Assembly (NCBI RefSeq): GCF_900172325.1
Contig: NZ_FWFR01000001.1
Span: 496,001 to 560,000, forward strand
Direction of reading: 5' to 3'
DNA from: Oceanibacterium hippocampi
GTDB lineage: Bacteria > Pseudomonadota > Alphaproteobacteria > Sneathiellales > Sneathiellaceae
Length of the DNA: 64,000 nt
Part shown: positions 40,631 to 58,399 of the stretch, in pieces
How positions within the stretch are numbered: position 1 is the first letter of the stretch
How the letters are laid out: each line of letters opens with the position of its first letter
Notes under the pieces: generated by a model
Seen by the model: only the letters and a program-made list of their open reading frames with translations
What the model was told of the DNA's origin: nothing
Database searches by the model: none
Made by a program: the position numbers and the translations under genes

Positions 40631-41614
40631 TCAATGATCGGATTTGTCGTCCAGATCGGCGAGGTCGGCCGCGATCGCCGCCGTCGGATCGATATCGCCC
40701 AGGGCCTCTTCCTCGTATGACCCACCGTCGTTCCGGTAGTCTATGTGGCGGGAAAGCCGGCGGCAGATCTCGTCCAGATCCTCGAGCGTCTCGTAGTGAA
40801 TTGTCAGCAGTCCGCCGGCCATGCCGCGATGCTCCAGCGTCACCTTCATGCCGAGCGTCGCCGACAGGTCGCCCTCGAGAGCGGCCGTATCGGAATCCTT
40901 TTGTGGCCGGGGCTTTCGCGGTGCCTTGGGCTTGTGGCCTTCCGCCAGCTTCTCGACCTGCCGGACATTCAGGCCCTTGGCAACGATCTGCCTGGCGAGC
41001 CCCTCCGGATCGTCCGCGGTAATGATCGCCCGCGCCGCGCCGGCCGAGATCTTGCCCTCGTCCACCAGCGCCAGGACACTGTCCGGCAGGCTCAGGAGCC
41101 GCAGCATGTTGGCGACATGGGAACGGCTCTTGCCGAGGCCCTTGCTCAGTTGCTCCTGGGTATACTTGAACGATTCGATCAGCGCGTGGTAGCCGCGCGC
41201 CTCTTCGACCGGGCTCAGATCCTCGCGCTGGATATTCTCGATGAGGGCGATTTCGAGGGTATCGGCATCGCTGAGATCGCGGATGACGACCGGGACCTCA
41301 TGAACCTCTGCCCGTTGGGCCGCCCGCCAGCGCCGTTCGCCGGCGACGATCTCGTAAACGTCTTCCTCGTTTGCGATCCGGCGCACCAGGATCGGCTGCA
41401 GGATGCCCTTCTCGCGGATCGATTCGACGAGACCCTGCAGGCTCTCTTCCTCGAAGCGCCGACGTGGCTGATTGGCGTTCGGCCGAATCTGGCCGATCGG
41501 CACCAGTTTGCCGGAGCGGATCCGCTCGAGACTGGCCATGTCCGCCGCGTCATCGTCGCCGAGCAGCGCCGACAGGCCACGGCCCAGTTTGCGCTTTCCG
41601 ATATCCTCGATCAT
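40631..41614 (-). CDS. parB: Chromosome partitioning protein ParB
   Basis: 327 residues. N-terminus MIEDIGKRKLGRGLSALLGD, ParB/Srx box with RRRFEEESLQGL and GERRWRAAQRAEVHEVPV (CTP-binding GERR patch), helix-turn-helix with LSKGLGKSRSHVANMLRLL, and a C-terminal dimer domain. It nucleates on parS and spreads. Two parS sites are within 5 kb (43070, 45054). ATG 41614 was chosen over TTG 41623. Follows parA with a 71-bp gap. Confidence 0.97.
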   Translation of the reverse strand: MIEDIGKRKLGRGLSALLGDDDAADMASLERIRSGKLVPIGQIRPNANQPRRRFEEESLQGLVESIREKGILQPILVRRIANEEDVYEIVAGERRWRAAQRAEVHEVPVVIRDLSDADTLEIALIENIQREDLSPVEEARGYHALIESFKYTQEQLSKGLGKSRSHVANMLRLLSLPDSVLALVDEGKISAGAARAIITADDPEGLARQIVAKGLNVRQVEKLAEGHKPKAPRKPRPQKDSDTAALEGDLSATLGMKVTLEHRGMAGGLLTIHYETLEDLDEICRRLSRHIDYRNDGGSYEEEALGDIDPTAAIAADLADLDDKSDH

Positions 41615-41685
41615 GGATGCCAATCCTCTGCCCCGACCCGGATATATGGTCGCATTATCGGGGGAGCAATCAAATACGGGATGGT

Positions 41686-42513
41686 TCAGGCGGCCTGCAA
41701 TGCGCCCTCGCGGCGGATCATTTCACGGGCGAGCCGAATATAGGCCTGGCTGCCGGCGCATTTGTAGTCATACACCAGTGCCGGCTTGCCGTGGCTCGGC
41801 GCCTCGGAAATTCGTACGTTTCGCGGAATGATCGTTTCGTAGACCTTGCTTCCGAGATACGCGCGAACATCTTGGGCGACCTGGTCGGAAAGATTGTTCC
41901 GGCGGTCAAACATCGTCAGGACGACACCTTGTATCTCCAGACCCGGATTGAGCGAATGGCGAACCCGCTCCAATGTCCGGATGAGAAGGCTCAGGCCTTC
42001 GAGCGCGAAGAACTCGCATTGCAGCGGCACCAGGACCGCGTCAGCCGCGACCATCGCGTTCAACGTCAGCAGGCTCAGCGACGGCGGGCAATCGATCAGG
42101 ATGAAGTCGTACAGCGACCGGACTGGGTCGATCGCTTCCTTCAGACGATGGCTGCGGCGCGGCACGTCGACCAGCTCGAGTTCGGCGCCGCTCAGATCGG
42201 TGGTGGAGGGCACCACCTCCAGGTTCGGAATGCCGCAGCGGACCGTCGCCCGCGAGATCGGCGTATCACCCAGAAGGCAATGGTAGATGTTCTCGCCGAC
42301 GGCGCGGCGGTCGATGCCGAGCCCCGTGCCGGCATTGCCCTGCGGATCGAGATCGACGATCAATACGCGGCGGCCGATTGCCGCCAGTCCGGTCGCCAGG
42401 TTGATGGCGGTCGTGGTCTTGCCGACCCCACCCTTCTGATTGGCAACGGCGAGCACGCGCGCGCGGGCGGGCGTCTCGTCAGGGATCCCGTCGATCGAAT
42501 GCAACATTGTCAT
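41686..42513 (-). CDS. parA: Chromosome partitioning ATPase ParA
   Basis: 275 residues. Deviant Walker A KGGVGKTTTAINLA (about 26-39), VLIVDLDPQGNAGTG, and Walker B region YDFILIDCPPSLSLLT. ATP-dependent nucleoid binding moves ParB-parS complexes. ATG 42513 lies 35 bp inside the 3' end of rsmG, so the two genes overlap. Second to last gene of the mnmE-mnmG-rsmG-parA-parB string. Confidence 0.97.
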   Translation of the reverse strand: MTMLHSIDGIPDETPARARVLAVANQKGGVGKTTTAINLATGLAAIGRRVLIVDLDPQGNAGTGLGIDRRAVGENIYHCLLGDTPISRATVRCGIPNLEVVPSTTDLSGAELELVDVPRRSHRLKEAIDPVRSLYDFILIDCPPSLSLLTLNAMVAADAVLVPLQCEFFALEGLSLLIRTLERVRHSLNPGLEIQGVVLTMFDRRNNLSDQVAQDVRAYLGSKVYETIIPRNVRISEAPSHGKPALVYDYKCAGSQAYIRLAREMIRREGALQAA

Positions 42514-43144
42514 GTCGGCGAAGGCCCTTCCAGCGGAGGATGACTCCGTCCGTTGCCGTTTGGCTGGGGAGTCGGTCAGGCGTGATATTCCAATATTTAG
42601 CGGCTTCGGTCAACTCAGCGTCTACATCTTGACCCTTCGGAAAGAGAAAGATCGTGTCCTCCCGGGCAAGCGGCTCGGCCAGTTCCAGCAGGCGCGCGAC
42701 CGGCGCCAGTGCCCGCGCCGATATCACCGCCGCCCCGGTTACGGGGACCTCCTCGATCCGGCAGTTATGGACCGTCACGACGGTTTCGGTCTCACGGGCT
42801 ACCTGACGGAGAAAAATGCATTTCCGGAGGTCCGATTCGACAAGATGAACATCACTGGCGCCCAGGATGGCCATGACCAGACCGGGAAAACCGGCACCGC
42901 TGCCCAGGTCAACCCAGGGTCCGGCCGACATCTCGGGGACATGCGACAGGAGTTGCGCGGAGTCGAGAAAGTGACGGCGCCAGACATCCTCAAGAGTACG
43001 CTTTCCGACGAGATTGATGGCCCCCTGCCACTGCCGGAGAAGGATCTCGTAGCGCTCGAGGCGCTCCATTGTTTCACGTGAAACATCGGCGCGGGCAGAG
43101 AACGCCTCCGCCGTCAGGGACCGGACATCAGGCCGACTGGTCAT
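42479..43144 (-). CDS. rsmG: 16S rRNA (guanine527-N7)-methyltransferase RsmG
   Basis: 221 residues. The SAM motif is [16 protein letters not shown], with [25 protein letters not shown] and [16 protein letters not shown], all typical RsmG. It methylates G527 of 16S rRNA. The first 26 codons contain a complete parS site (43070-43085), translated as part of VSRETME, so the site constrains the protein here. Overlaps mnmG by 17 bp and parA by 35 bp. Confidence 0.96.
43070..43085. other. parS site inside rsmG
   Basis: TGTTTCACGTGAAACA, a perfect 16-bp palindrome identical to the widely conserved ParB-binding parS sequence. It lies within the rsmG reading frame, about 1.5 kb from parB. Confidence 0.96.
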
Positions 43145-44999
43145 AGGAGCGCTTTTCGGCGCGACGAATATGTCCGAGTATCGCCGTGAGCGCCGCGGGC
43201 GTGACGCCGGGAATGCGACCGGCCTGTCCGAGACTCGCCGGCCGGGCCGATTTCAGTTTCTCCCGCACCTCGTTGGAAAGCCCCGTAACCGCATCAAAAT
43301 CGAGATCCGGGCTGAGCCGGAGCGCCTCGTCCCGGCGGAAGGCGACGATATCCGCCGATTGCCGGTTCAGATAGGTCGCGTAGACCGCCTCGATCTCCAG
43401 GCATTCGGCGACCTGGGCCGGGAGGTCTCCGAGCTCCGGCCAGATCTTGTGAAGCGCCGAAATCCCGATCCCCGGGTAGGACAGGAGCTGAAACGCCGAC
43501 CGGTTGACCCCGTCCTGGTTGATCGGGAGACCCGCCCTGGCAGCAACAGAGGGCGATACCGTCAGCGAGCGCATCAGCGTCAGTGCTCCCTCGATCGCCG
43601 CCGCCTGGTCCCGAAAACGCGCCGCGCGGTCGCTCCCGACAAGTCCGAGATCGATACCCTTCTGCGTCAGGCGGCGGTCCGCGTTATCCGCCCGCAGACT
43701 GAGCCGATACTCGGCGCGGGAGGTGAACATGCGATAGGGTTCGCTCGTTCCCTTGGTGACGAGATCGTCGATCATCACCCCGATGTAGGACTCGCTTCGG
43801 TCGAATACGACCGGGTCCGACCCGGCGGCCGATCGTGCCGCGTTCAGCCCGGCGACCAGACCCTGGGCGGCCGCTTCCTCATAGCCCGTGGTACCGTTGA
43901 TCTGGCCGGCAAGATAGAGGCCGGGCAGACGCTTCGTCTCCAGCGAGGGCAGCAACTCGCGCGGATCGACGAAGTCATACTCTATGGCATAACCCGGGCG
44001 GATAATCTCCGTTCGAGCGAGGCCGGGGATCGTGGCCACCAACGCCTTCTGGATCTCGGCGGGCAGAGACGTCGAAATCCCGTTGGGATAGACGGTGTCG
44101 TCGTCAATACCTTCCGGCTCGAGAAATATCTGGTGTCGATCACGATCCCCGAAGCGGACAACCTTGTCCTCGATGGACGGGCAATATCGCGGCCCCGTCC
44201 CCTCGATCTGGCCCGAATAGATCGCTGCGACATGAAGATTCGCGCGGATGATGTCGTGGGTCGCGCGCGTCGTTCCGGTTATATGGCATGGCACTTGTGG
44301 CGCCGTAACCCGCTCGGTCAGAAACGACAGGAACTCCGGGGCCTCATCGCCGTCCTGAACGTCAAGCCCAGCCCAGTCGATTGTCGACCCGCGCAGACGG
44401 GGCGGCGTCCCGGTCTTGAGACGCCCAAGGCGAAACTCGAGCCGTTCAAGCGTGAGGGCCATTCCCACCGATGGCGCGTCACCGACGCGACCGGCCGGCC
44501 AGGTTTCGGAACCCAGATGGATAAGGCCGCGCAGGAATGTCCCGGTGGTCAGAATAACCCGTTCAGCAGTGAAGCGCCGGCCATCCTCGGTGACTATACC
44601 TGTAACCCGCCCGTTCCGGATCGCCAGATCCTCTGCGGCGGCCGCCACCACCTCAAGATTCGCGGTCCCGGAGATCTCCGCCTGCATCGCCGCGCGATAG
44701 CGGGCCCGGTCCGACTGGGTACGCGGCCCGCGGACCGCTGGTCCCTTGCGACGGTTCAAGAGGCGATACTGGATGGCCGCCGCGTCCCCGATCCGGCCCA
44801 TGAGGCCATCGAGGGCATCGATCTCGCGCACAAGATGTCCCTTGCCCAGTCCGCCGATAGCCGGATTGCAGGACATCTCCCCGATGGTTTCCGGCTTGTG
44901 GGTAATGAGCAGCGTGCGCGCGCCAATGCGCGCCGAAGCCGCAGCGGCTTCGGTACCGGCATGGCCGCCCCCGATGACGATGACATCATATGCACTCAC
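43128..44999 (-). CDS. mnmG: tRNA uridine-5-carboxymethylaminomethyl(34) synthesis protein MnmG
   Basis: 623 residues. FAD-binding [10 protein letters not shown] at 11-20, then [38 protein letters not shown] and [14 protein letters not shown], all MnmG signatures. With MnmE it builds the cmnm5 group on U34 of certain tRNAs. ATG 44999. The stop overlaps rsmG by 17 bp. The upstream gap to mnmE (45000-45076) holds a parS site. Confidence 0.97.
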
Positions 45000-45053
45000 C
45001 CCGGCTTTTTATGGACCTCCGTTGCCGCTGTCAAAGCCGTTGATGCCGCGCGA

Positions 45054-45069
45054 TGTTTCACGTGAAACA
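45054..45069. other. parS site between mnmG and mnmE
   Basis: TGTTTCACGTGAAACA, a perfect 16-bp palindrome, identical to the site in rsmG. It lies in the 77-bp gap between mnmE and mnmG, about 3.4 kb from parB. Confidence 0.97.
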
Positions 45070-45076
45070 ATTCACG

Positions 45077-46399
45077 TCATTTGCCGATGCAGAAATCCCT
45101 GAACACCACATCCAGAAGCTCTTCGATATCGACCGCCCCGGTCACACGCCCTATCTCACGAACTGCCATCCGCAGATCCTCGGCCACGAGCTCCAGGGGC
45201 TTCTCCTCGGCAAGCGAGCCCATCGCCTCGACCGCCCGTTCCAGTGCCTCCCGGTGCCGGGCGCGTGTCAGGGCTGGCGCATCCCCAACGGCGAAACGAA
45301 ACGCGATCGCTTCCGAAAGCCCGTCCAGCAGGGCAGATAATCCGGCTCCGCTCCGCGCCGAAATGGCAAACGCCTTCCCCGTCAGGACGTCCACCGTGTC
45401 TTCCCCGAGGCAATCGATCTTGTTCCAGACGACAATCCGGTCAGGATCGTCGCCCGACGGCGGCGGGACCGGATCGGTCGCGTCGACAACGAAAAGCCGG
45501 ATATCCGACTCGGCCGCCCGCCACCGCGCCCGCCGAACCCCCTCGATCTCGACCGGGTCCGTGCTCTCCCGAAGTCCGGCGGTGTCGGTCATGAGAACCG
45601 GATAACCGCCGAGATCGAGATAGACTTCCAGGATATCCCGGGTGGTGCCGGGACGATCGGCGACGATGGCCACGTCCCGTCGAGCCAAGGCATTGAGAAG
45701 GCTCGACTTCCCGGCATTGGGAGCGCCGACGATCGTCACGCGGATCCCCTCCCGAAGCCGTTCCCCCCTGTGCCCGTCGTCAAGATGGGCGCGTATCTCC
45801 GCCTTGACCGATGCCGCATCCGATAGAGCTGAAAGAGCCGCTGTGTCCGGCACTTCCTCGTCGGGAAAATCGAGAACCGCCTCGACATAAGCCAGAACCC
45901 TGAGCAACCGTCTCCGCCAATCCTCGTAAAGACCGGCAGTCGTCCCGCTCATCTGCCGCAGGGCCTGCTCGCGCTGCCGCGCGGTTTCCGCATCCACCAG
46001 ATCGGCGACCGCCTCCGCCGCCGTCAGGTCGAGTTTTCCGTATTCGACGGCCCGCCGGGTGAATTCCCCGGGCTCGGCTGCGCGCAGTCCTTCGATCGCA
46101 GAGAGCGCGGACAGGATCCCCTCGGTAACCGCCCGACCACCATGACCATGAAGCTCGACCAGGTCCTCGCCGGTAGCGCTCGCCGGACCCGGGAACCAGA
46201 GCGCAAGCCCCCGATCGACAACGCCGTCGCCGTCCCGGCCCAGGAAATCCGCAAGCACCGCCCGCCGCGGAATCGGCAACGCCCGCCCGGTCACGGTCTC
46301 AAGCGCCCGTCCGGCTGCCGGCCCGGAGATCCGAAACACGGCAATGCCGGCCCGTCCCCGTCCGCTCGACAGGGCGTATATTGTCTCGTCACGTCTCAT
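45077..46399 (-). CDS. mnmE: tRNA modification GTPase MnmE
   Basis: 440 residues. N-terminal folate-binding domain starts MRRDETIYALSSGRGRAGIAV. The G domain has Walker A GAPNAGKSSLLNAL, switch DRPGTTRDILE, DTAGLRE, and NKID. The C-terminal FCIGK is intact. Partner of MnmG. ATG 46399; the open frame runs up to 46462, but that part overlaps the next gene and does not resemble MnmE. Confidence 0.97.
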   Translation of the reverse strand: MRRDETIYALSSGRGRAGIAVFRISGPAAGRALETVTGRALPIPRRAVLADFLGRDGDGVVDRGLALWFPGPASATGEDLVELHGHGGRAVTEGILSALSAIEGLRAAEPGEFTRRAVEYGKLDLTAAEAVADLVDAETARQREQALRQMSGTTAGLYEDWRRRLLRVLAYVEAVLDFPDEEVPDTAALSALSDAASVKAEIRAHLDDGHRGERLREGIRVTIVGAPNAGKSSLLNALARRDVAIVADRPGTTRDILEVYLDLGGYPVLMTDTAGLRESTDPVEIEGVRRARWRAAESDIRLFVVDATDPVPPPSGDDPDRIVVWNKIDCLGEDTVDVLTGKAFAISARSGAGLSALLDGLSEAIAFRFAVGDAPALTRARHREALERAVEAMGSLAEEKPLELVAEDLRMAVREIGRVTGAVDIEELLDVVFRDFCIGK

Positions 46400-46430
46400 C
46401 GAATGGCCACCGACATCGAAAGCCGGGCGC

Positions 46431-46682
46431 TCACTTCTCGCGCGATCCTCCACCGGCTCCACCGAACTGGGTCCAGAACGCCTTCTGCATCTGCTCCCAA
46501 CCCTGGATCCCGGCCGGAAGCCAGGTCTTCAGAAGGCTCTCCGGGTCCATGCCACTCATCGCCTCGACCATGCGCTTCTGCATCTCCCGCATCACCTCCT
46601 CCTGCATCGGCTTGACGTCGGGGAGACCGAAGAAGCTCCGCGCCTCTTCCGGGGTGCAATCCACATCGACCGTGATCTTCAT
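46431..46682 (-). CDS. Small conserved protein, DUF6489-like
   Basis: 83 residues. Begins MKITVDVDCTPEEARSFFGLPDV, then a helical middle rich in Met/Glu (MQEEVMREMQKRMVEAM) and PESLLKTWLPAGIQGWEQMQ with a Gly-rich tail. I recall this as a DUF6489-type alphaproteobacterial protein; the helical part has a phasin-like look, which is inference. ATG 46682; ends 31 bp before the mnmE start on the same strand. Confidence 0.75.
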   Translation of the reverse strand: MKITVDVDCTPEEARSFFGLPDVKPMQEEVMREMQKRMVEAMSGMDPESLLKTWLPAGIQGWEQMQKAFWTQFGGAGGGSREK

Positions 46683-46820
46683 ATCAACGCCTTTCCCGCG
46701 ATTAGCCCTTGTCTGTCCGATCGAGAAAACTAGGCTAAAGAGCAGGCTGCGGCAATCGCCGCGCCGGCCTGACCCTACCCGCCGCAGCGTCGTCGGAACG
46801 CCCGGACCGAAGGACCCTCA

Positions 46821-48863
46821 ATGCGCAACGTGCTCGACCAGGAAACCAGCCCGTACCTCCTCCAGCATGCGGACAACCCGGTACACTGGCAGGCCTGGAA
46901 CGCCGACAGCCTTGACCGGGCCCGGCAGGAGAACAAGCCGATCCTGCTCAGCGTCGGCTATGCCGCCTGCCACTGGTGCCATGTCATGGCCCACGAAAGC
47001 TTCGAGAATCCGGATATCGCGGCGGTCATGAACGAGCTCTTCGTGAGCATCAAGGTCGACCGCGAGGAACGTCCGGACATCGACCAGATCTACCAGGCGG
47101 CGCTCGCCCATCTCGGCCAGCAGGGCGGCTGGCCGCTCACCATGTTCCTCACGCCCGATGGCGAGCCATTCTGGGGCGGCACCTACTTCCCGAGCGAACC
47201 GAAGTACGGGCGGCCGGGCTTTACCGACGTCCTCCGTGCCGTCCGCCGGATCTATGACGAGGAACCCGACAAGGTCGAAAGCAACCGCTTCGCCCTTCAG
47301 CATGCCTTGATCCAGCAGAACGCCGCCGGCGACGCCGAGCCGGCGAACATCGGGCCCGAGCTGCTCGACCGAATTGCCGAGCGTATCCTGCAGGAAGTCG
47401 ACCCGGTGAACGGCGGGATCGGCGGCGCACCGAAGTTTCCGCAAACCTATATTCTCGAACTGCTCTGGCGCGCCTACCGCCGCACGGGACGGAACGAATT
47501 CGCGGCCGCGGTGACGCTGACCCTCGATCGCATGTGCCAGGGCGGCATCTATGATCATCTCGGCGGCGGTTTCGCGCGCTATTCCACCGACGCCGCCTGG
47601 CTCGCCCCGCATTTCGAGAAAATGCTTTACGACAACGCGCAACTTCTACGCCTTCTTCTCCTTGTCCATGACGAGACCGGCTCAAGCCTCTACGAGGCCC
47701 GGATACGCGAGACCATCGAATGGCTGCTGCGCGAGATGATTGCCGACGGCGGCGCCTTCGCCGCCACCCTCGACGCCGATTCGGAAGGCGAGGAAGGACG
47801 TTTCTATGTCTGGCGCGAAGCCGAGATCGACGCCATCCTCGGGACCGATGCCGCGCTGTTCAAGACTGCCTATGACGTGACACCGGACGGCAACTGGGAA
47901 GGCAAGACAATCCTCAACCGGAATGCCGACCCGACGGACCGGACGCCGGAAGAGGAAGCGACCCTCGCCCGCTGCCGCCAGACCCTGCTCTCCTTTCGCG
48001 ATCGCCGCGTCCGGCCCGGCTGGGACGACAAGGTACTCGCCGACTGGAACGGCCTGGCGATCGGCAGCATGGCACTGGCGGCTGCGCGCTTCCGGGAACC
48101 TTCCTGGCTGGAAGCAGCGGAAGAGGCTTTCGACTTCGTCCGCACCGGAATGACCGTCGACGGCCGGATTTGCCACAGCGCGCGGGCCGGCCGGCTTCTG
48201 CGTGCCGCCATGCTGGACGATTACGCGAACATGGCAGACGCCGCCCTCCTGCTCTACGAAACCACCGGAAAGGACGGCTACCTGGAGGCCGCACAGGACT
48301 GGGCCGAGACAGTCGAAGCCCACTACCGGGACGAGGCCAATGGCGGCTATTTCTTCACCGCCGACGACGCGGAGGCCCTCATCGTCCGCAGCCGCCAGAT
48401 CAGCGACAATGCGACCCCCTCGGGCAACGGGGTGATGCTTGCCGTACTCGCCCGCCTCTACCTGCATACCGGCGCCGAACGCTGTCGCGCCCGCGCGGAA
48501 ACGCTCATCGATGCCTTTTCCGGCCTTGTCCGGCAGAATTTCTTCCCGCTCGCGACCTTCCTCAATGCCGTCGAATTCTTCCACGCGCCGGTCCAGGTTG
48601 CCATCATCGGAGATCCCGACGCCGCAGGCACCTGGGCCCTCCGCAATGCCGCGCTCGGTTCCGGTGAACCCAATCTGTCGCTCACCGTCATCCCACCGGA
48701 CCGTGACCTGCCACCGGCGCACCCGGCCAGGGGCAAGGCGCCGAAAGACGACGGCGAACCGACCGCCTATGTCTGCGTCGGGCCGGTTTGCTCGCTGCCC
48801 GTGACCAGCGCCGCGGCACTCATCGAGGCCTTGCCCAAACCAGGACAGACAAGACATGGGTGA
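46821..48863 (+). CDS. Thioredoxin-domain protein, YyaL/SPATA20 (DUF255) type
   Basis: 680 residues. The N-terminal thioredoxin-like domain has CHWC in YAACHWCHVMAHESFE (about 52-67), followed by SIKVDREERPDIDQIYQ and GGWPLTMFLTPDGEPFWGGTYFP. The rest is an alpha/alpha-toroid like glycan epimerases or hydrolases, with HFEKMLYDNAQLL and YANMADAALLLYE. Function is unsettled in bacteria; a redox or carbohydrate role has been proposed. ATG 46821. The stop overlaps ogt by 8 bp. Confidence 0.92.
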   Translation: MRNVLDQETSPYLLQHADNPVHWQAWNADSLDRARQENKPILLSVGYAACHWCHVMAHESFENPDIAAVMNELFVSIKVDREERPDIDQIYQAALAHLGQQGGWPLTMFLTPDGEPFWGGTYFPSEPKYGRPGFTDVLRAVRRIYDEEPDKVESNRFALQHALIQQNAAGDAEPANIGPELLDRIAERILQEVDPVNGGIGGAPKFPQTYILELLWRAYRRTGRNEFAAAVTLTLDRMCQGGIYDHLGGGFARYSTDAAWLAPHFEKMLYDNAQLLRLLLLVHDETGSSLYEARIRETIEWLLREMIADGGAFAATLDADSEGEEGRFYVWREAEIDAILGTDAALFKTAYDVTPDGNWEGKTILNRNADPTDRTPEEEATLARCRQTLLSFRDRRVRPGWDDKVLADWNGLAIGSMALAAARFREPSWLEAAEEAFDFVRTGMTVDGRICHSARAGRLLRAAMLDDYANMADAALLLYETTGKDGYLEAAQDWAETVEAHYRDEANGGYFFTADDAEALIVRSRQISDNATPSGNGVMLAVLARLYLHTGAERCRARAETLIDAFSGLVRQNFFPLATFLNAVEFFHAPVQVAIIGDPDAAGTWALRNAALGSGEPNLSLTVIPPDRDLPPAHPARGKAPKDDGEPTAYVCVGPVCSLPVTSAAALIEALPKPGQTRHG

Positions 48864-49350
48864 AAATCACGCGGTTCGCCAACGCACGGTGATGAGCCCG
48901 CTCGGGCCACTCACGATCACCGAAGAGGACGCACATATCGTCGCGCTCGACTGGGGTTCGGGGCCGCCGGAATGTCAGGCAGACACGCCTCTACTCACCC
49001 GTGCCGCCGCACAAATCAACGCTTATTTCGATAACGTAATAAAAAACTTCTCATTGCCGCTGAAACCCGCAGGCACTGCGTTCCAGCGCGCGGTCTGGGC
49101 CGCGATGCTTGAGATCCCGCCCGGGCGAACCGAAACCTATGGCAGCCTCGCCGCCCGCATCGACGGCATCGCGCGCGCCGTCGGCACCGCCTGTGGCGCC
49201 AATCCGATCCCGATCATCATCCCCTGTCACCGGGTCGTGGCCGCAAAGCATCTGGGCGGCTACAGCGGGGACGGAGGTCTGGACACGAAGCGCTATCTGC
49301 TGACACTCGAAGGCTGCGCGGACTTCTCCGATCAGCCGACATTGATCTGA
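48856..49350 (+). CDS. ogt: Methylated-DNA--protein-cysteine methyltransferase
   Basis: 164 residues. The active site IIPCHRVV (Cys about 118) and the helix-turn-helix start TAFQRAVWAAMLEIPPGRTETYG are standard. It repairs O6-alkylguanine by a one-time transfer to the Cys. No Ada domain, so a stand-alone Ogt. ATG 48856 overlaps the stop of the preceding gene. Confidence 0.93.
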   Translation: MGENHAVRQRTVMSPLGPLTITEEDAHIVALDWGSGPPECQADTPLLTRAAAQINAYFDNVIKNFSLPLKPAGTAFQRAVWAAMLEIPPGRTETYGSLAARIDGIARAVGTACGANPIPIIIPCHRVVAAKHLGGYSGDGGLDTKRYLLTLEGCADFSDQPTLI

Positions 49351-49382
49351 CACCAACGACAATCCATCCAGGGAGACAAGAC

Positions 49383-50087
49383 ATGGCCGGACAGGACATT
49401 TCCATCAAGACGGACACGGGCGAGTCCTTCGTGGGCTACCTGTCACTGCCCGCGTCGGGACAGGGCCCCGGCGTTGTCGTCATCCAGGAAATCTTCGGCG
49501 TGAACAAGGTCATGCGCGACATCGCCGACACCTACGCCGCCCAGGGCTATGTCGCCCTCTGCCCCGACCTGTTCTGGCGCATCGAACCCGGCATATCGAT
49601 CACCGACCAGACCGAGGCGGAATGGAAACAGGCCTTCGACCTGTTCCAGAAATTCGACGTCCCGGCCGGCGTCAAGGATATCCAGGCAACGATCTCGCAT
49701 CTCAGGAAGCAGTCCGCCTGCACCGGAAAGGTCGGCGCGGTCGGTTTCTGCCTGGGCGGCCTGCTCGCTTACTTGAGCGCCACCCGCACCGATTCCGATG
49801 CCTCCGTCGGCTATTACGGGGTCGGCATCGAGAGCAAGCTGGACGAGGCGGCGAAAATCAGCCGCCCATTGATGCTCCATATCGCCGGCGAGGACGAATA
49901 TTGCGGCAAGGAAGCGCAGGCGCAGATCCATGCCGGGCTCGACAGCCATTCCAGGGTAACCCTGCACGACTATCCCGGCATGAACCATGCCTTTGCCCGG
50001 AACGGCGGCGCCCACTATGACAGCGCCGCCGCGACCCTCGCCAACAAGCGGACCGGCGATTTCTTTTCCGCCCATCTCAGCGCCTGA
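49383..50087 (+). CDS. Dienelactone hydrolase family protein
   Basis: 234 residues. Nucleophile Cys in GAVGFCLGGLLAY, the family pattern, plus PGVVVIQEIFGVN and catalytic His in YPGMNHAF. The acid is probably Asp in GEDEYCG. It hydrolyses dienelactones in aromatic degradation in some hosts, but no other such gene is near; general esterase activity is possible. Follows ogt by 32 bp with the GGAG site. Confidence 0.9.
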   Translation: MAGQDISIKTDTGESFVGYLSLPASGQGPGVVVIQEIFGVNKVMRDIADTYAAQGYVALCPDLFWRIEPGISITDQTEAEWKQAFDLFQKFDVPAGVKDIQATISHLRKQSACTGKVGAVGFCLGGLLAYLSATRTDSDASVGYYGVGIESKLDEAAKISRPLMLHIAGEDEYCGKEAQAQIHAGLDSHSRVTLHDYPGMNHAFARNGGAHYDSAAATLANKRTGDFFSAHLSA

Positions 50088-53092: not shown

Positions 53093-54150
53093 CGCAAGGC
53101 TCCGGAAACTGCCTGAAGCGGGCATTGTCCATGATCTGCCGGGCAGCGCCGCACCCCGTCCTGGCTGGCGATCCCGGCCGGCCCGGCGAGTGAGCGTCTG
53201 ACCAGCCCGGCGAGCGCCGACACATAGGTCTCCGAGGCATTCAACGCCGGAACCCGGAAATAGCCCGGCACGCCGCTTTTCCGGGCGAGTTCGCGATACT
53301 CTATATCGAGTTCGACGAGGGTCTCGGAATGCTCCGAAACGAAGGCGATCGGCACGATTACCAGGGAGGTACCGCTCTCACCCGCCCGGCGGATCTCGTC
53401 GTCGGTCGAGGGGCCGATCCATTCAAGCGGCCCGACCCGACTCTGGTAGCAGACCTTCCAGTCGAGTCCTTCCCGGTCGAGCCCGCGAACCACGGCGGCG
53501 GCTGTTTCCTCGACCTGCCACTGGTAGGGATCGCCGCCGGCGATGACCTTCTTCGGCAGCCCATGCGCGGAGAACAGGACGCGGACCGGACCATCGCCCG
53601 CCTCTCGGAGCATGGCGGAGAGCGCGTCGACGTGACCGGCGATGAAGTCCGGCTCGACCGGGTAGCAGCAGATGCCGCTGGTCGCCACGGTCAGCCCCGC
53701 CTTCGCCGCCTCGTAATGCCATTCCAGGAGCGACGAGCCGGTCGTCGTGGTGGAATATTGCGGATATAGCGGCAGCAACACGATGCGATCGGGCGCGAAG
53801 GCCTTCACCCGGGCAACCATCTCGGCCGCCCGCGGATGCCAGTATCGCATGGCGACAAAGACACCGACGTCGCCAAGTTCGCCGAGCGCGGCCTGCAGGG
53901 CCTCGGCTTGCGTTTCGGTAATCTCGCGCAGCGGCGAACGGCCGCCGATCTCCGCATAGATCGCCTGGGCTGTCCTTTCGCGCCGCGAGGATATCAGTTT
54001 CGCCAGCACCCAGCGGAACGGGTTCGGCAGCGAAATGATCGCCGGGTCATTGAAGAGATTGAACAGGAACGGCTTCACCGATTCCGGCCGGTCGGGGCCG
54101 CCGAGATTGAACAGAACGACGGCAATCCGTTCGTTCGCCCTGCCGTTCAT
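53089..54150 (-). CDS. hemH: Ferrochelatase
   Basis: 353 residues. Motifs VLFNLGGPD near the start, RYWHP, LYPQYSTTTTGS, and SAHGLPKK with the metal-site His. Inserts Fe(II) into protoporphyrin IX. ATG 54150 overlaps the hemE stop by 4 bp; a longer open frame up to 54789 overlaps hemE and is rejected. Ends in a 4-bp overlap with hemJ. Confidence 0.97.
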   Translation of the reverse strand: MNGRANERIAVVLFNLGGPDRPESVKPFLFNLFNDPAIISLPNPFRWVLAKLISSRRERTAQAIYAEIGGRSPLREITETQAEALQAALGELGDVGVFVAMRYWHPRAAEMVARVKAFAPDRIVLLPLYPQYSTTTTGSSLLEWHYEAAKAGLTVATSGICCYPVEPDFIAGHVDALSAMLREAGDGPVRVLFSAHGLPKKVIAGGDPYQWQVEETAAAVVRGLDREGLDWKVCYQSRVGPLEWIGPSTDDEIRRAGESGTSLVIVPIAFVSEHSETLVELDIEYRELARKSGVPGYFRVPALNASETYVSALAGLVRRSLAGPAGIASQDGVRRCPADHGQCPLQAVSGALR

Positions 54151-55226
54151 CCGTTCCTGCCTGCCAATTCGCGCACCGTCGCGACAAGCTCGCCGACATG
54201 TTCCGGCGGCGTCGGCGGCACGATCCCGTGCCCGAGATTGAAGATGTGCGAACGGCCTTTCATGGCCTCCAGGATCGTCGCGATACCCTCCCGCATCGGC
54301 TGGCCACCTGCGACCAGCAGGGCCGGATCGAGATTGCCCTGCAGCACCCGCGCATCGTTCAGATTCTCGCGGGCCCAGGCAAGCGGCATCGCCGAATCGA
54401 GGCTCACGCCATCGACCCCCGTCTCGGCGGCATAGCCGAGCAGCAGCGGACCGGCGCCGCGTGGAAAGGCAATCACGGGAACAGTCGGACATTGTGCGCG
54501 GAAACGCTCGACAATCGCCTTGACCGGGGCAACGCACCAGCGACGGAAGGCCGCTTCCGGCAGGACGCCGGCCCAGGTATCGAAGATCTGCACCACTTCC
54601 GCCCCGGCCCGTACCTGGGCAACCAGGTAGTCGGCGGTCGCCTCGACCAGCCGGTCGATGAGGGCGGCAAAGCCCGGCTCCTCCCCGAATGCCCAGCGCT
54701 TGACAGTCAGGTAATCCTTCGATGAGCCGCCCTCGACCATGTAGGTTGCGACGGTCCACGGCGCCCCGGCAAAGCCGATCAGCGCGCACTCGGACGGCAG
54801 TTCGCGGGCCAGGATACGCAGCGTTCCCATGACCGGTTCGAGCTTCTCGAGCATGCCCTCCGGACGCAGCACTGCAAGATCGCCGGCCTTGCGGATCGGT
54901 TCCAGGCAGGGGCCCTCGCCTTGCTTGAAGGCGACATCCTGGCCAAGCGCGTGCGGGATCAGGAGAATGTCGGCGAAAACGATCGCGGCATCGAAACCGT
55001 AACGCCGGATCGGCTGGAGCGTGACCTCGGCGGACCGCTCGGAATCGTAGCAGAGATCGAGAAAACCACCCGCATCGGCGCGGACAGCCCGGTATTCCGG
55101 GAGATAGCGTCCGGCCTGGCGCATCAGCCAGATCGGCGGCGGTGTGCGCTGATCACCGGCCAGGACCCGAAGCAGTGGCTTCGCGACACGTTCGGCGGTC
55201 GATTTCACCTGTTCGGCGTTCGGCAT
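54147..55226 (-). CDS. hemE: Uroporphyrinogen decarboxylase
   Basis: 359 residues. RQAGRYLPEYRAVR near 36-49 and CALIGFAGAPWTVATYM are UroD signatures. It decarboxylates uroporphyrinogen III to coproporphyrinogen III. ATG 55226. First gene of the heme string; its upstream side is the putative replication origin. In Caulobacter and Rickettsia, as I recall, hemE also flanks oriC. Confidence 0.97.
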   Translation of the reverse strand: MPNAEQVKSTAERVAKPLLRVLAGDQRTPPPIWLMRQAGRYLPEYRAVRADAGGFLDLCYDSERSAEVTLQPIRRYGFDAAIVFADILLIPHALGQDVAFKQGEGPCLEPIRKAGDLAVLRPEGMLEKLEPVMGTLRILARELPSECALIGFAGAPWTVATYMVEGGSSKDYLTVKRWAFGEEPGFAALIDRLVEATADYLVAQVRAGAEVVQIFDTWAGVLPEAAFRRWCVAPVKAIVERFRAQCPTVPVIAFPRGAGPLLLGYAAETGVDGVSLDSAMPLAWARENLNDARVLQGNLDPALLVAGGQPMREGIATILEAMKGRSHIFNLGHGIVPPTPPEHVGELVATVRELAGRNG

Positions 55227-55445
55227 GGGACAGGGATTCCAGCGCTTCGTGGTCCGGGCCGAGTTCCGGCCGGTGTCTCGTCTGCCATCCGGGTCTAGCC
55301 GCTAATGCGCCCAAGTTCCAGCCCGTTCTGTCATTCATCCAAGGCAACTCGATGGTTATCGCGCACGCCGGCATGGCCGGCATGAACGCGCCGTTCTACC
55401 TTTCTTGTTTTTTAGATTCTTAAGGGGGTAGAGGTAGTGAATCCC

Positions 55446-55454
55446 TGTGGATAA
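55446..55454 (-). promoter_or_regulatory. DnaA box
   Basis: TGTGGATAA on the plus strand, TTATCCACA on the minus strand; an exact match to the consensus, 20 bp from the AT-rich patch. Confidence 0.75.
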
Positions 55455-55725
55455 CGAGGATTGTTTGCTGCCCACAGATTCGTCCCGGTCGGCGTCGGAT
55501 GACGTCGGGGGCGCGCCGCGGTCTGTGCACGGATCGCTGCAAAGCGAGGCCCGGTGCCGCGTGGAAAACCGGGAATCACGGTGAGAAGTGTTCGGCGCGC
55601 GATGGCTCTGCCGGTTATCCCGGTGATGCGCACGGCGACATTCGGTATTTGCAGAAGGGGACGATGCCGACTACAGAAAATGCAAGACGTGCATCCTTTC
55701 CCCGAGCGAACGCGCGGCGGCACGG

Positions 55726-55734
55726 TTATCCACG
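55726..55734 (+). promoter_or_regulatory. DnaA box, one mismatch
   Basis: TTATCCACG, differing from the consensus only in the last base, 41 bp upstream of the regulator start. A second weaker match, TCATACACA, follows at 55746-55754. Confidence 0.5.
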
Positions 55735-55774
55735 TCCAGGACGTTTCATACACAGGTTCCGTGAAAATCCCGCC

Positions 55775-56605
55775 ATGGCCCAATTCCACCTGCATCTGAT
55801 CTCGGACGCGACCGGAGAGACCCTGCACGCGATTTCGAAGGCCGTTCTCGTGCAGTTCGAACAAGCGAGCGCGATCGAACATGTCTGGTCGCTGGTTCGC
55901 AGCGAACGCCAGCTCAAGGCGGTGATCGATACCATTGCCGGTCGGCCGGGCATCGTCATGTTCACGCTGGTGGATTTCAAACTGCGCGAGATTCTCGAAG
56001 AGGCCTGCAAGAAACTGGCGATGCCCTGTGTCTCGGTGCTCGATCCGGCGATGGCTGTGGTTTCCGCCTATCTCGGCGCGACAAGCCGCGGCCTGCCCGG
56101 CCGCCAGCACGAGATCGGCGACGAATATTTCAACCGAATCGAGGCGATGAATTTCGCCATGACCCATGACGACGGGCAGTTTCCCCAGCGTCTTGCGGAA
56201 TCCGACATCATTCTGGTCGGTGTATCGCGGACTTCTAAGACACCGACCTCGATCTATCTCGCCAATCGTGGCGTGAAAGTCGCGAACGTGCCGTTCGTCC
56301 CGAACATCCCCCTGCCACCGGAATTGTTCGAGCTGACCCGCCCACTCATCGTCGGGCTCACGACCAACCCGGAAGTCCTCATCGAGATTCGCCGGAACAG
56401 GCTGCTGTCGCTCAAGGAACGCAGCGTCACCGATTATGTCGATCCGGAAATCGTGCGCGAGGAAGTGGCGACGGCCAAGCGTCTCTTCGCCCGTCATGGC
56501 TGGCCGACCATCAATGTCGCGCGGCGCTCGATCGAGGAAACCGCGGCGACGATCCTCAATCTTTATAATCGCCGCGCCGAGGAACGTCTCAACGGCGGCA
56601 AGTGA
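55775..56605 (+). CDS. ppsR: Pyruvate, phosphate dikinase/PEP synthase regulatory protein
   Basis: 276 residues. Opens with FHLHLISDATGET and has the P-loop GVSRTSKTPTSIYLA (about 150-164), both signatures of the DUF299 bifunctional kinase/pyrophosphorylase. It switches PPDK or PEP synthase activity through ADP-dependent phosphorylation of a Thr. ATG 55775 is chosen: upstream in-frame codons to 55499 would cover most of the origin. Rightward, directly after the putative oriC. Confidence 0.95.
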   Translation: MAQFHLHLISDATGETLHAISKAVLVQFEQASAIEHVWSLVRSERQLKAVIDTIAGRPGIVMFTLVDFKLREILEEACKKLAMPCVSVLDPAMAVVSAYLGATSRGLPGRQHEIGDEYFNRIEAMNFAMTHDDGQFPQRLAESDIILVGVSRTSKTPTSIYLANRGVKVANVPFVPNIPLPPELFELTRPLIVGLTTNPEVLIEIRRNRLLSLKERSVTDYVDPEIVREEVATAKRLFARHGWPTINVARRSIEETAATILNLYNRRAEERLNGGK

Positions 56606-56623: not shown

Positions 56624-57661
56624 CTATTCGAGCCAGCTGAACGGCACCGCTTCGCCGTTTCCGTCGATCAGGTATTCGCCGGCGACCCGCAGCCAGGCGC
56701 TGGTCAAGCTATGATCGATGACGCCGCCCTTGCGCCCGAAGGCCTCGGGCGTGCGCTCCAGTTCAAGGCGGAACACGACGATCGACAGATCGTCTTCCGG
56801 CTCGCTGGCGACTGCAAGGCTGTGTCCGGTTGCCTGCTCGATCGCGGCGAGCCGCTCGCTCGGAACGGCCAGCAGCATGTGCTGGCGGATGCGCGATGTC
56901 TCGTCGAGCACGGTGAGCCGGCAATCCTCCTGGCTGGAAACAAAGACCGAAAAGCGCTCCAGATGGGCACTGAGCAATTGCGTGGCCATCGCGGCCGCGC
57001 CCTTCCGGCCCGACGCCGTCGGCCCAAAACCGTGATATTCGAAGAACTTGGTCTCCAGCGCCTCGACAAAATCCTCGCCACGCTCGAACAGGCGCCGTTC
57101 CAGGTAACCGAGCTCGATGCCGAGCTGTTTGATGGCGTTGTCGGTCAGCCGCTCGACCTTGACATGCATGTGGCTGATCCGTGCCGGACCGACCGGCTGG
57201 CCCTGGAGAATCTCGCGATCCAGCATCAGTGCATAGTCGAGGGTGGACAGCCGCGCCAGCAGGTCGTCCGCCCGGTCGTGGTCGAAGGACGCGTCTTCCG
57301 CCTTGTAATGCGGGACAATGACCGGCGAAGCGAGCCGCTTGATATTGCTCCAGGTTACGCGATTGCTGTTCCGCAGCCGGAAATGCTTGTTCAGGCTGCG
57401 CGGCATCTGGCCGTCGAGCAACAGGACCAGCGCGGTATTCTGGAAACGCTGCTCTGCAGCCGGTTGCTGTTCCCAGGGAAGGATTTGGTTCGGGGCCGGG
57501 AAGGGATAGGGCTTGCCGTGGCGACGAAAGTTGTCGTAGCTCTCAATCAGGGTGTGCTGGATCAGGCGCGAGGTGACGCGCGCCTTGGCCGCCAGGAAGT
57601 GATCCGCGACGCGTCCGGGGAAGGCGACAACCTTCGGTTCTTCTGACTGCGGATCGTCCAT
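56624..57661 (-). CDS. Conserved protein of unknown function near the origin
   Basis: 345 residues; I do not recognise it. A short acidic N-terminus (DDPQSEEPKVVAFPG) precedes a helical region and a repeated hydrophilic pattern; no signal peptide or membrane helix. Candidate conserved pieces: IQHTLIESYDNFRRHG, LVLLLDGQMPRSLNKHFRLRN, and LEVGYLERR-like helices (LGIELGYLERRLFERGEDF). The C-terminal part is a beta-rich segment (SIVVFRLELERTPEAFG). ATG 57661, 6 bp after a GTG option. Antisense to nothing known; convergent with the regulator. Confidence 0.7.
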   Translation of the reverse strand: MDDPQSEEPKVVAFPGRVADHFLAAKARVTSRLIQHTLIESYDNFRRHGKPYPFPAPNQILPWEQQPAAEQRFQNTALVLLLDGQMPRSLNKHFRLRNSNRVTWSNIKRLASPVIVPHYKAEDASFDHDRADDLLARLSTLDYALMLDREILQGQPVGPARISHMHVKVERLTDNAIKQLGIELGYLERRLFERGEDFVEALETKFFEYHGFGPTASGRKGAAAMATQLLSAHLERFSVFVSSQEDCRLTVLDETSRIRQHMLLAVPSERLAAIEQATGHSLAVASEPEDDLSIVVFRLELERTPEAFGRKGGVIDHSLTSAWLRVAGEYLIDGNGEAVPFSWLE

Positions 57662-57754
57662 CGTCACCTGAGTGCTGAAGTTGCGCGACGTGTTTTGTAC
57701 ATAGGTTGGTTATCGCCCATTAAGGCCCTGAAATACAAGTCATATTACTGGATC

Positions 57755-58399
57755 ATGACGGATATATCGGAACAGTTATCCACAAATTTTTCCCAATCGG
57801 GTGCAACCCGCGTCGTCCTGGCGTCGGCCAGCATCGCGCGCGCGCGCCTGCTTTCGTCGGCCGGTATCGAGGTGACCCGGCAACCGGCCGCCGTCGACGA
57901 GGAAACGATCAAGGAAAGCTTCCGTCATTCCGGCGCCGCGGCGATCGACGCGGCCCAGGCACTGGCCGAACTGAAGGCGCGCAAGATCTCTGCCCGGGAA
58001 CCCGACGCGCTGGTGATCGGCGCCGACCAGATACTCCGTGCCGGCGAGGACTGGTTCGACAAGCCTGCAGATCGTGCCGCCGCGCGGGCGCAATTGCTCC
58101 TGCTCCGCGGCCGGGAACACCGCCTGGAAACAGCCGTGGCGGTTGCCCGCGGCGGCACGGTCATCTGGCATCATCGCGAAAGTCCGAAACTCGTCATGCG
58201 GGATTTCTCCGAACAGTTCCTCGACGCGTATCTCGCCCATGCGGGTGATGCGATCCTGCAAAGCGTGGGCGCCTATCACCTGGAGGGGATCGGCGTGCAG
58301 CTCTTCGGCAGGATCGAGGGCGATTATTTCAGCATTCTCGGGCTGCCGCTACTGGCTCTTCTGGGCTTTCTGCGCCAGAACCGGGTCGTCGGCCAGTGA
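57755..58399 (+). CDS. maf: Maf-like nucleoside triphosphate pyrophosphatase
   Basis: 214 residues. LASASIARARLLSSAGI, AVDEETIKES, and ALVIGADQIL are the Maf motifs; the catalytic acid is in GADQ. It hydrolyses modified NTPs or dTTP/UTP. ATG 57755 was chosen; an upstream ATG at 57695 adds an AT-rich, odd lead. A perfect DnaA box lies within codons 8-10. Its stop overlaps aroE as GTGA. Confidence 0.9.
   Translation: MTDISEQLSTNFSQSGATRVVLASASIARARLLSSAGIEVTRQPAAVDEETIKESFRHSGAAAIDAAQALAELKARKISAREPDALVIGADQILRAGEDWFDKPADRAAARAQLLLLRGREHRLETAVAVARGGTVIWHHRESPKLVMRDFSEQFLDAYLAHAGDAILQSVGAYHLEGIGVQLFGRIEGDYFSILGLPLLALLGFLRQNRVVGQ
57776..57784 (+). promoter_or_regulatory. Perfect DnaA box in the maf 5' coding region
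   Basis: TTATCCACA, exact consensus, in an AT-rich stretch that runs from about 57690 to 57800 and includes the divergent gap. It is 2.3 kb from the main candidate origin and may be a regulatory or auxiliary origin site. Confidence 0.6.

Follow-up and report, generated by a model that had tools for sequence, protein, structure and literature searches.

A putative TDG variant of the DnaA-trio at the hemE/PPSR origin of Oceanibacterium hippocampi and other Alphaproteobacteria

Introduction

According to PMC1914354, the experimentally mapped origin of Caulobacter crescentus (Cori) lies between hemE and the COG1806 gene and the origin of Rickettsia prowazekii (oriC) is predicted at the same place, both with DnaA boxes and an AT-rich region between the boundary genes that also flank the locus described here. 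With regard to origin opening, the closest described system is the basal unwinding system (BUS) of Bacillus subtilis, in which AT-rich DNA, a tract of DnaA-trios, a GC-rich 5-mer and a DnaA box stand in a fixed order, strand and orientation (PMC10316083, PMC8287927), and for which PMC8287927 requires by definition a run of three or more 3'-NAN-5' trios no further than 16 bp from a DnaA box. It has been reported that B. subtilis DnaA holds the first base of the trio, G, with Arg202 and Glu228 and the central A with Asn187, while the third base points away and is contacted by Asn196; the nucleobase-capture model rests on the central adenine, whose replacement by T or G impairs initiation and by C much less so (PMC10721633). 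In Thermotoga maritima (eTrio) and Helicobacter pylori (DnaA-trios) a tract is likewise found between AT-rich DNA and DnaA boxes, is required for opening and keeps the central A of TAG (PMC10316083, PMC8235120), and for H. pylori the complementary T has been described as strictly conserved (PMC8235120). The authors of the BUS definition considered that deviant trios lacking the central adenine might exist, and found no trios in 15% of genomes (PMC8287927). Our literature search, which covered article listings and a selection of papers, returned no report of alphaproteobacterial trinucleotide tracts, and an earlier description is possible.

The DNA analysed here, called the window, is a stretch of 64,000 nucleotides corresponding to positions 496001-560000 of a 2,309,638-bp contig, in a genome of 4.83 Mb in 18 contigs. 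Positions are those of the window unless given as contig positions.

The hemE/PPSR gap as chromosomal origin

The origin region, its boundary genes and the partition genes nearby are the following.

40631-42513, minus strand: parB (40631-41623; parB_part, over cut-off) and a ParA-like ATPase (41686-42513; ParA matches below cut-offs)
43070-43085, no strand: parS, perfect TGTTTCACGTGAAACA, contig position 539070
45054-45069, no strand: parS, perfect TGTTTCACGTGAAACA, contig position 541054
54147-55226, minus strand: hemE, uroporphyrinogen decarboxylase, left boundary gene (TIGR01464, 401.6 bits, over the cut-off of 302.95)
55227-55774, no strand: hemE/PPSR intergenic region of 548 bp, oriC
55775-56605, plus strand: PPSR (COG1806, PPDK/PEPS regulator), right boundary gene (NF003742, 340.5 bits, over the cut-off of 225)

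The gap directly abuts the reading frames of both boundary genes at their start codons (hemE at 55226, minus strand; PPSR at 55775, plus strand). This divergent arrangement is found in 93 of 100 loci, equivalent to 86 of 93 distinct places, as seven of the 100 loci are repeats of a place (L049 and L061, for example, are one place). A GTDB scan with PPSR matched three named records, all of them MAGs of Rhodospirillales or Rhodospirillaceae at 56-58% identity, which places the genome in the Alphaproteobacteria with no close named kin in that scan. To the left of hemE lie hemH (recognised by eye only), hemJ and rho, and to the right of PPSR a 347-aa reading frame on the minus strand is followed by maf, aroE, coaE, a dnaQ-like exonuclease and secB. 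The 347-aa frame (56627-57667), which is convergent with PPSR, matched no NCBIfam or Pfam family. Alongside this Cori-type layout a parABS system is found near the gap: parAB and the parS sites sit among rsmG, mnmG and mnmE, and a search of the contig at up to two mismatches returned two parS sites in all, both perfect, 10.2 and 12.2 kb from the gap.

Over the whole 2.31-Mb contig, the one of the 18 on which it was computed, GC skew switches sign close to the gap: all 11 of the 50-kb bins before 550 kb are negative, and all 36 that follow are positive. The cumulative minimum lies 7.3 kb to the right of the gap, at contig position 559053, where the cumulative value is -7263 as against -7233 at the gap. 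This distance, together with a skew near zero over 50-64 kb of the window, counts against the assignment of the origin to the gap. The strongest negative skew of the window (about -0.11) is seen at 44001-50000, just left of the origin. The gap is also the sole place on the contig at which three DnaA boxes with at most one mismatch fall inside 550 bp, a number below the four or more given as indicative in PMC1914354.

Taken together, the hemE/PPSR gap is well supported as the chromosomal oriC of this alphaproteobacterium; its location, the GC-skew switch, the parS sites and a conserved, oriented and contig-unique module are computed rather than inferred. The original prediction, which had named this gap a probable oriC from the origin neighbours of Rickettsia and Caulobacter, a perfect DnaA box, two near-boxes, an AT-rich patch and five GANTC sites, thus agrees with the data: the two neighbours, which are those of Cori-type origins, score above their model cut-offs, every listed element is present (the near-boxes having one mismatch each), the skew minimum falls near the gap, and parS with parAB and the conserved DnaA-box module point to the same place. 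Since the gap is where the Caulobacter origin is mapped and the Rickettsia origin predicted, and skew, boxes and parS accompany it, the assignment in itself is ordinary. An oriC at hemE/PPSR is already textbook knowledge, and the part that would count is the variant opening module of the class.

DnaA boxes, AT-rich DNA and other elements of the gap

The following elements were found within the gap, and one further box beyond it.

55235-55239, no strand: GANTC
55400-55423, plus strand: putative AT-rich melting region (DUE) with one GANTC within, assigned from the AT-rich columns of the class-wide module
55415-55419, no strand: GANTC, inside the AT-rich region
55429-55440, plus strand: degenerate DnaA-trio-like trinucleotide tract TAG-AGG-TAG-TGA (direct reading; profile z=12; register with relatives)
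55439-55443, no strand: GANTC across the tract end and spacer, two bases from the perfect box
55441-55445, plus strand: GC-rich 5-mer spacer ATCCC, from tract to box
55446-55454, minus strand: perfect DnaA box TTATCCACA (box search; contig scan)
55455-55463, minus strand: candidate weak-box position CGAGGATTG abutting the perfect box, suggested by relatives
55477-55481, no strand: GANTC
55560-55568, minus strand: two-mismatch DnaA box TTTTCCACG, which may be due to chance (box search)
55573-55577, no strand: GANTC
55726-55734, plus strand: one-mismatch DnaA box TTATCCACG (box search)
55746-55754, plus strand: one-mismatch DnaA box TCATACACA (box search)
57776-57784, plus strand: a further perfect DnaA box, one of 13 in the genome, which falls within the maf reading frame at a distance of 2.3 kb from that of the gap

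Perfect boxes alone were rejected as an origin criterion, because the 4.83-Mb genome holds 13 copies of TTATNCACA and the backwards-read control holds 13 as well. The perfect box of the gap is of the E. coli type (TTATCCACA), whereas the Caulobacter G-box is TGATCCACA (PMC4285127). At the candidate weak-box position relatives carry CGGGGAT.., which resembles, on the other strand, the Caulobacter W-box TCCCCA described in PMC4285127. The gap is somewhat richer in AT than the window (39.8% vs 34.5%), and 40-base frames between 55387 and 55466 reach 55-60% AT. In contrast to Caulobacter Cori, the gap lacks an IHF consensus and a full CtrA site: WATCAN5WTR has no match in 55150-55850, and the best site for TTAA-N7-TTAA, at 55409-55423, has two mismatches. 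Close to PPSR, gaps of a sister genus (such as L032, L039, L045 and L050) have GTTATCCC and, after it, two DnaA boxes in tandem, one of them TTATCCACA; the window's gap has at this end two one-mismatch boxes only, without the tandem form of the sister genus.

An oriented and conserved putative opening module

On the plus strand, to the left of the perfect box, AT-rich DNA is followed by GGGGG, the tract TAG-AGG-TAG-TGA, the spacer ATCCC and then TGTGGATAAC. At the same place in the sister genus, AT-rich DNA is followed by AGG, five or six TNG triplets, five bases and TGTGRATAACGGGGAT. That AT-rich DNA, trinucleotide tract, GC-rich 5-mer and DnaA box form one oriented module was missed in the original prediction. 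A profile of 58 columns was built from 10 gaps of this genus (g2) and tested outside that family and on the window, whose gap scores 29.9 bits (z=12, above 100 of 100 shuffles); a scan of both strands of the 2.31-Mb contig yields no other site above 5 bits.

In 52 of 73 loci at most one in 100 dinucleotide shuffles reaches the profile score of the locus itself. Outside the training family, the module was detected at p<=0.01 in 42 of 60 families or records and had the same orientation in 41; it was not detected at this threshold in the other 18, some of which an ungapped scan will miss. Orientation, uniqueness on the contig and the held-out families constitute three checks that are independent of the shuffles. 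Left out of the 60 were the window's own gap and x57 (L057), whose module sequence is identical to that of L089 of family f15; x57 was kept in the 42-sequence column count, and both were kept among the 43 gaps used for GANTC and run counts. The comparison included 38 stretches, one per family, chosen from the best-scoring PPSR matches listed, a choice that gives too little weight to diverged families and to the 121 genomes, out of 387, in which PPSR had no match. Two earlier approaches were set aside: a trio-plus-box pattern, found in 25 of 30 gaps as against 1.8% of shuffles, sat in some cases on a neighbouring pseudo-box and was replaced by the trained profile, and an exact-core scan was dropped after it returned wrong sites in diverged families.

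The TDG repeat

When each column was masked in turn over 42 sequences, G was found in 155 of 210 repeat cells and T in 113 of 168. At the centre the base was A in 47, G in 63, T in 54 and C in only 4 of 168 cells. The repeat reads 5'-TDG-3', with conserved T and G at its ends and a centre that is free but non-C, and on sequence grounds it is a probable variant of the Bacillus DnaA-trio, in which the central A is fixed; the tracts of T. maritima and H. pylori differ from it in the same respect. Three or more successive TDG triplets stand no further than 16 bp from the box in 23 of 41 module-bearing families, and three NAN triplets in a row, as PMC8287927 requires, in 7 of 41; both kinds of run are present in three families. 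In base-shuffled 42-mers the corresponding rates are 0.9% for TDG runs and 28% for NAN runs. In the sister genus 22 of 27 gaps (repeated places included) have TDG runs of at least four, with T at the centre in 60 cases, A in 34 and G in 10.

The window's own tract stands at the poor end of this series. Its longest TDG run and its longest NAN run are both 1, it holds five NDG triplets in register, and it is recognised through this register, the G of period three and the flanking columns. The spacer between box and tract measures 5 bases (8 from the last clean TAG), as against a published peak of 10-13. Under the definition of PMC8287927 the gap is not a BUS; with DnaA box, GC-rich spacer and tract in Bacillus order and orientation, it may be described as BUS-like in architecture, with the further difference that the best-matching box here adjoins the tract.

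DnaA residues at the trio-reading positions

Numbered as in B. subtilis, the DnaA of the window's genome has Tyr at 187, Lys at 196, Lys at 202 and Glu at 228. Among 58 DnaA proteins from 58 families, position 187 is Y in 43, F in 7, N in 4, H in 2, V in 1 and S in 1, and is therefore aromatic (Y or F) in 50 of 58; position 202 is K and position 228 E in 58 of 58, and position 196 is mostly Lys. These proteins differ accordingly from B. subtilis DnaA (PMC10721633) in an aromatic residue for Asn187, Lys for Arg202 and mostly Lys for Asn196. At the level of the class, such a pattern would fit a repeat in which the G is kept and the centre freed.

Co-variation of residue 187 with the module was not borne out across families: the module was detected in 36 of 49 families with Y or F and in 4 of 8 with other residues (Fisher P=0.22, leaving out one family whose residue was not covered and one whose gap was not read), so that the link between residue 187 and the free centre is so far a class-level coincidence rather than demonstrated co-variation. 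Two observations speak against the residue reading, namely that C, which is functional at the centre in Bacillus, is avoided there by the free-centre repeat, and that the third base, T, is strongly kept although Bacillus DnaA does not capture it. In a single case, family f112 (L092), Asn is kept at 187 and AAG-TAG-TAG-GGCC precedes the box, an arrangement very like that of B. subtilis.

GANTC sites and CcrM

The original prediction held that fewer than two GANTC sites should occur by chance and that the five found hint at CcrM-linked timing. For GC-rich DNA the estimate holds, as 548-bp contig frames of 58-62% GC contain 1.4 sites on average, with five or more in 1.3% of frames, and the rate of the window predicts 1.05; for the gap itself it is slightly low, the gap's own dinucleotides giving 2.5. 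Across the contig GANTC is rare (1.56 per kb vs 3.01 expected from base composition). The excess holds class-wide, while it is not significant at this gap alone (P=0.11 vs its own dinucleotides) and is reversed in the sister genus, where 11 sites were found against 24.1 expected in 22 gaps, a depletion that refuted conservation of GANTC within the family.

These two last results favour the explanation that the cluster is a by-product of local AT-richness without regulatory meaning, to which we give even odds. It is opposed by the hemE/PPSR gaps of 41 other families, which hold 126 sites against 88.3 expected (z=4.2) while seven control palindromes of like composition range from z -3.3 to +2.1, and by the distribution over 43 gaps, with 21 sites against 9.3 in the AT-rich part and 20 against 8.1 from the box start rightwards; part of the class-wide excess may nevertheless be compositional, as the Markov null ignores the AT-rich patch. 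A site two bases before the box, at exactly the same offset, is found in 5 of 43 module-bearing gaps, including that of the window.

A ccrM gene, the presence of which had been proposed as a check, is found as a CcrM-like enzyme of 361 aa that scores 618.6 bits with the CcrM model NF050803, below its cut-off of 830, and adjoins a gene resembling rnhB by eye; gcrA is present in the genome. Another DNA methyltransferase, which belongs to the N6_N4 family (locus L024, contig 569861-570484), lies about 18 kb to the right of the gap, next to reading frames that by eye resemble a response regulator and a histidine kinase. CcrM-linked timing of initiation through these sites is a weakly supported conjecture, and any role for them at the gap is a guess.

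Proposed opening of the origin and alternative explanations

The best overall explanation, to which we assign a probability of roughly 80%, is that the gap is oriC and is opened from the perfect DnaA box via the trinucleotide tract into the AT-rich stretch. In such a scheme DnaA would dock at the perfect box at 55446-55454, aided by the abutting weak site and by the one-mismatch boxes near PPSR, and would then form an oligomer that grows away from the box, passes the GC-rich 5-mer and reaches one of the two strands of the tract at 55429-55440. The tract would be the single strand gripped by DnaA and melting would begin in the AT-rich patch, the stretch at 55400-55423 being opened and the helicase loaded there.

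An alternative that retains the origin is opening of the E. coli type, in which DnaA bound to double-stranded boxes draws an AT-rich strand with TTGT/TTATT-type motifs back onto itself and the tract is no more than a weak spacer or low-melting DNA. The TTG repeats of relatives do contain TTGT, an E. coli ssDUE motif (PMC8235120, PMC10316083), the lysine at DnaA position 202 of all 58 families is unlike B. subtilis, and the window's own tract is degenerate. On the other hand, the period-3 pattern stays in register with the box from family to family, some tracts (L063, for example) contain little TTGT or none, and the IHF search of the gap region was negative; this type of opening is in our judgement unlikely, though credible.

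Another explanation sees in the module an element of the hemE promoter or leader, or a switch through which DnaA controls hemE, with the origin elsewhere within about 10 kb. It draws on the position of the module in a divergent promoter region, usually 50-200 bp from hemE, and on the 7.3 kb that separate the gap from the skew minimum. Against it, two loci of family f74 (L072 and L074) retain the module ahead of PPSR although hemE was not found beside it; a third, L079, reaches p=0.03, and four other loci without hemE lack the module. With neither another module match nor another three-box cluster on the contig, and with a location that coincides with the experimentally mapped Caulobacter origin (PMC1914354), we regard this explanation as very unlikely. 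An origin beside dnaA, which lies on the same contig 39 kb rightwards (contig position 590271) with a perfect DnaA box at contig position 597185, the gap being then an old origin neighbourhood, is extremely improbable, as cumulative skew already rises at dnaA and neither a module site above 5 bits nor a three-box cluster is found near it.

Conclusions

The reading that opening proceeds from the perfect box through the tract can be extended to a joint proposal, which we advance tentatively and with the odds against it: Alphaproteobacteria would use a TDG code whose outer G and T are still recognised by DnaA, while recognition of the central adenine would have been lost through the change of the Asn that reads it to an aromatic residue. 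With CcrM target adenines lying inside the melting site in many lineages, their methylation state could tune opening directly. If true, this code would represent the deviant DnaA-trio without central adenine that was suspected by the authors of the BUS definition (PMC8287927). A simple profile singles out this origin once in 2.31 Mb, and a class that keeps two bases of the repeat and varies the third, together with an altered contact residue, makes drift of the DnaA single-strand code directly testable. These bacteria may thus read their origins by a modified code.
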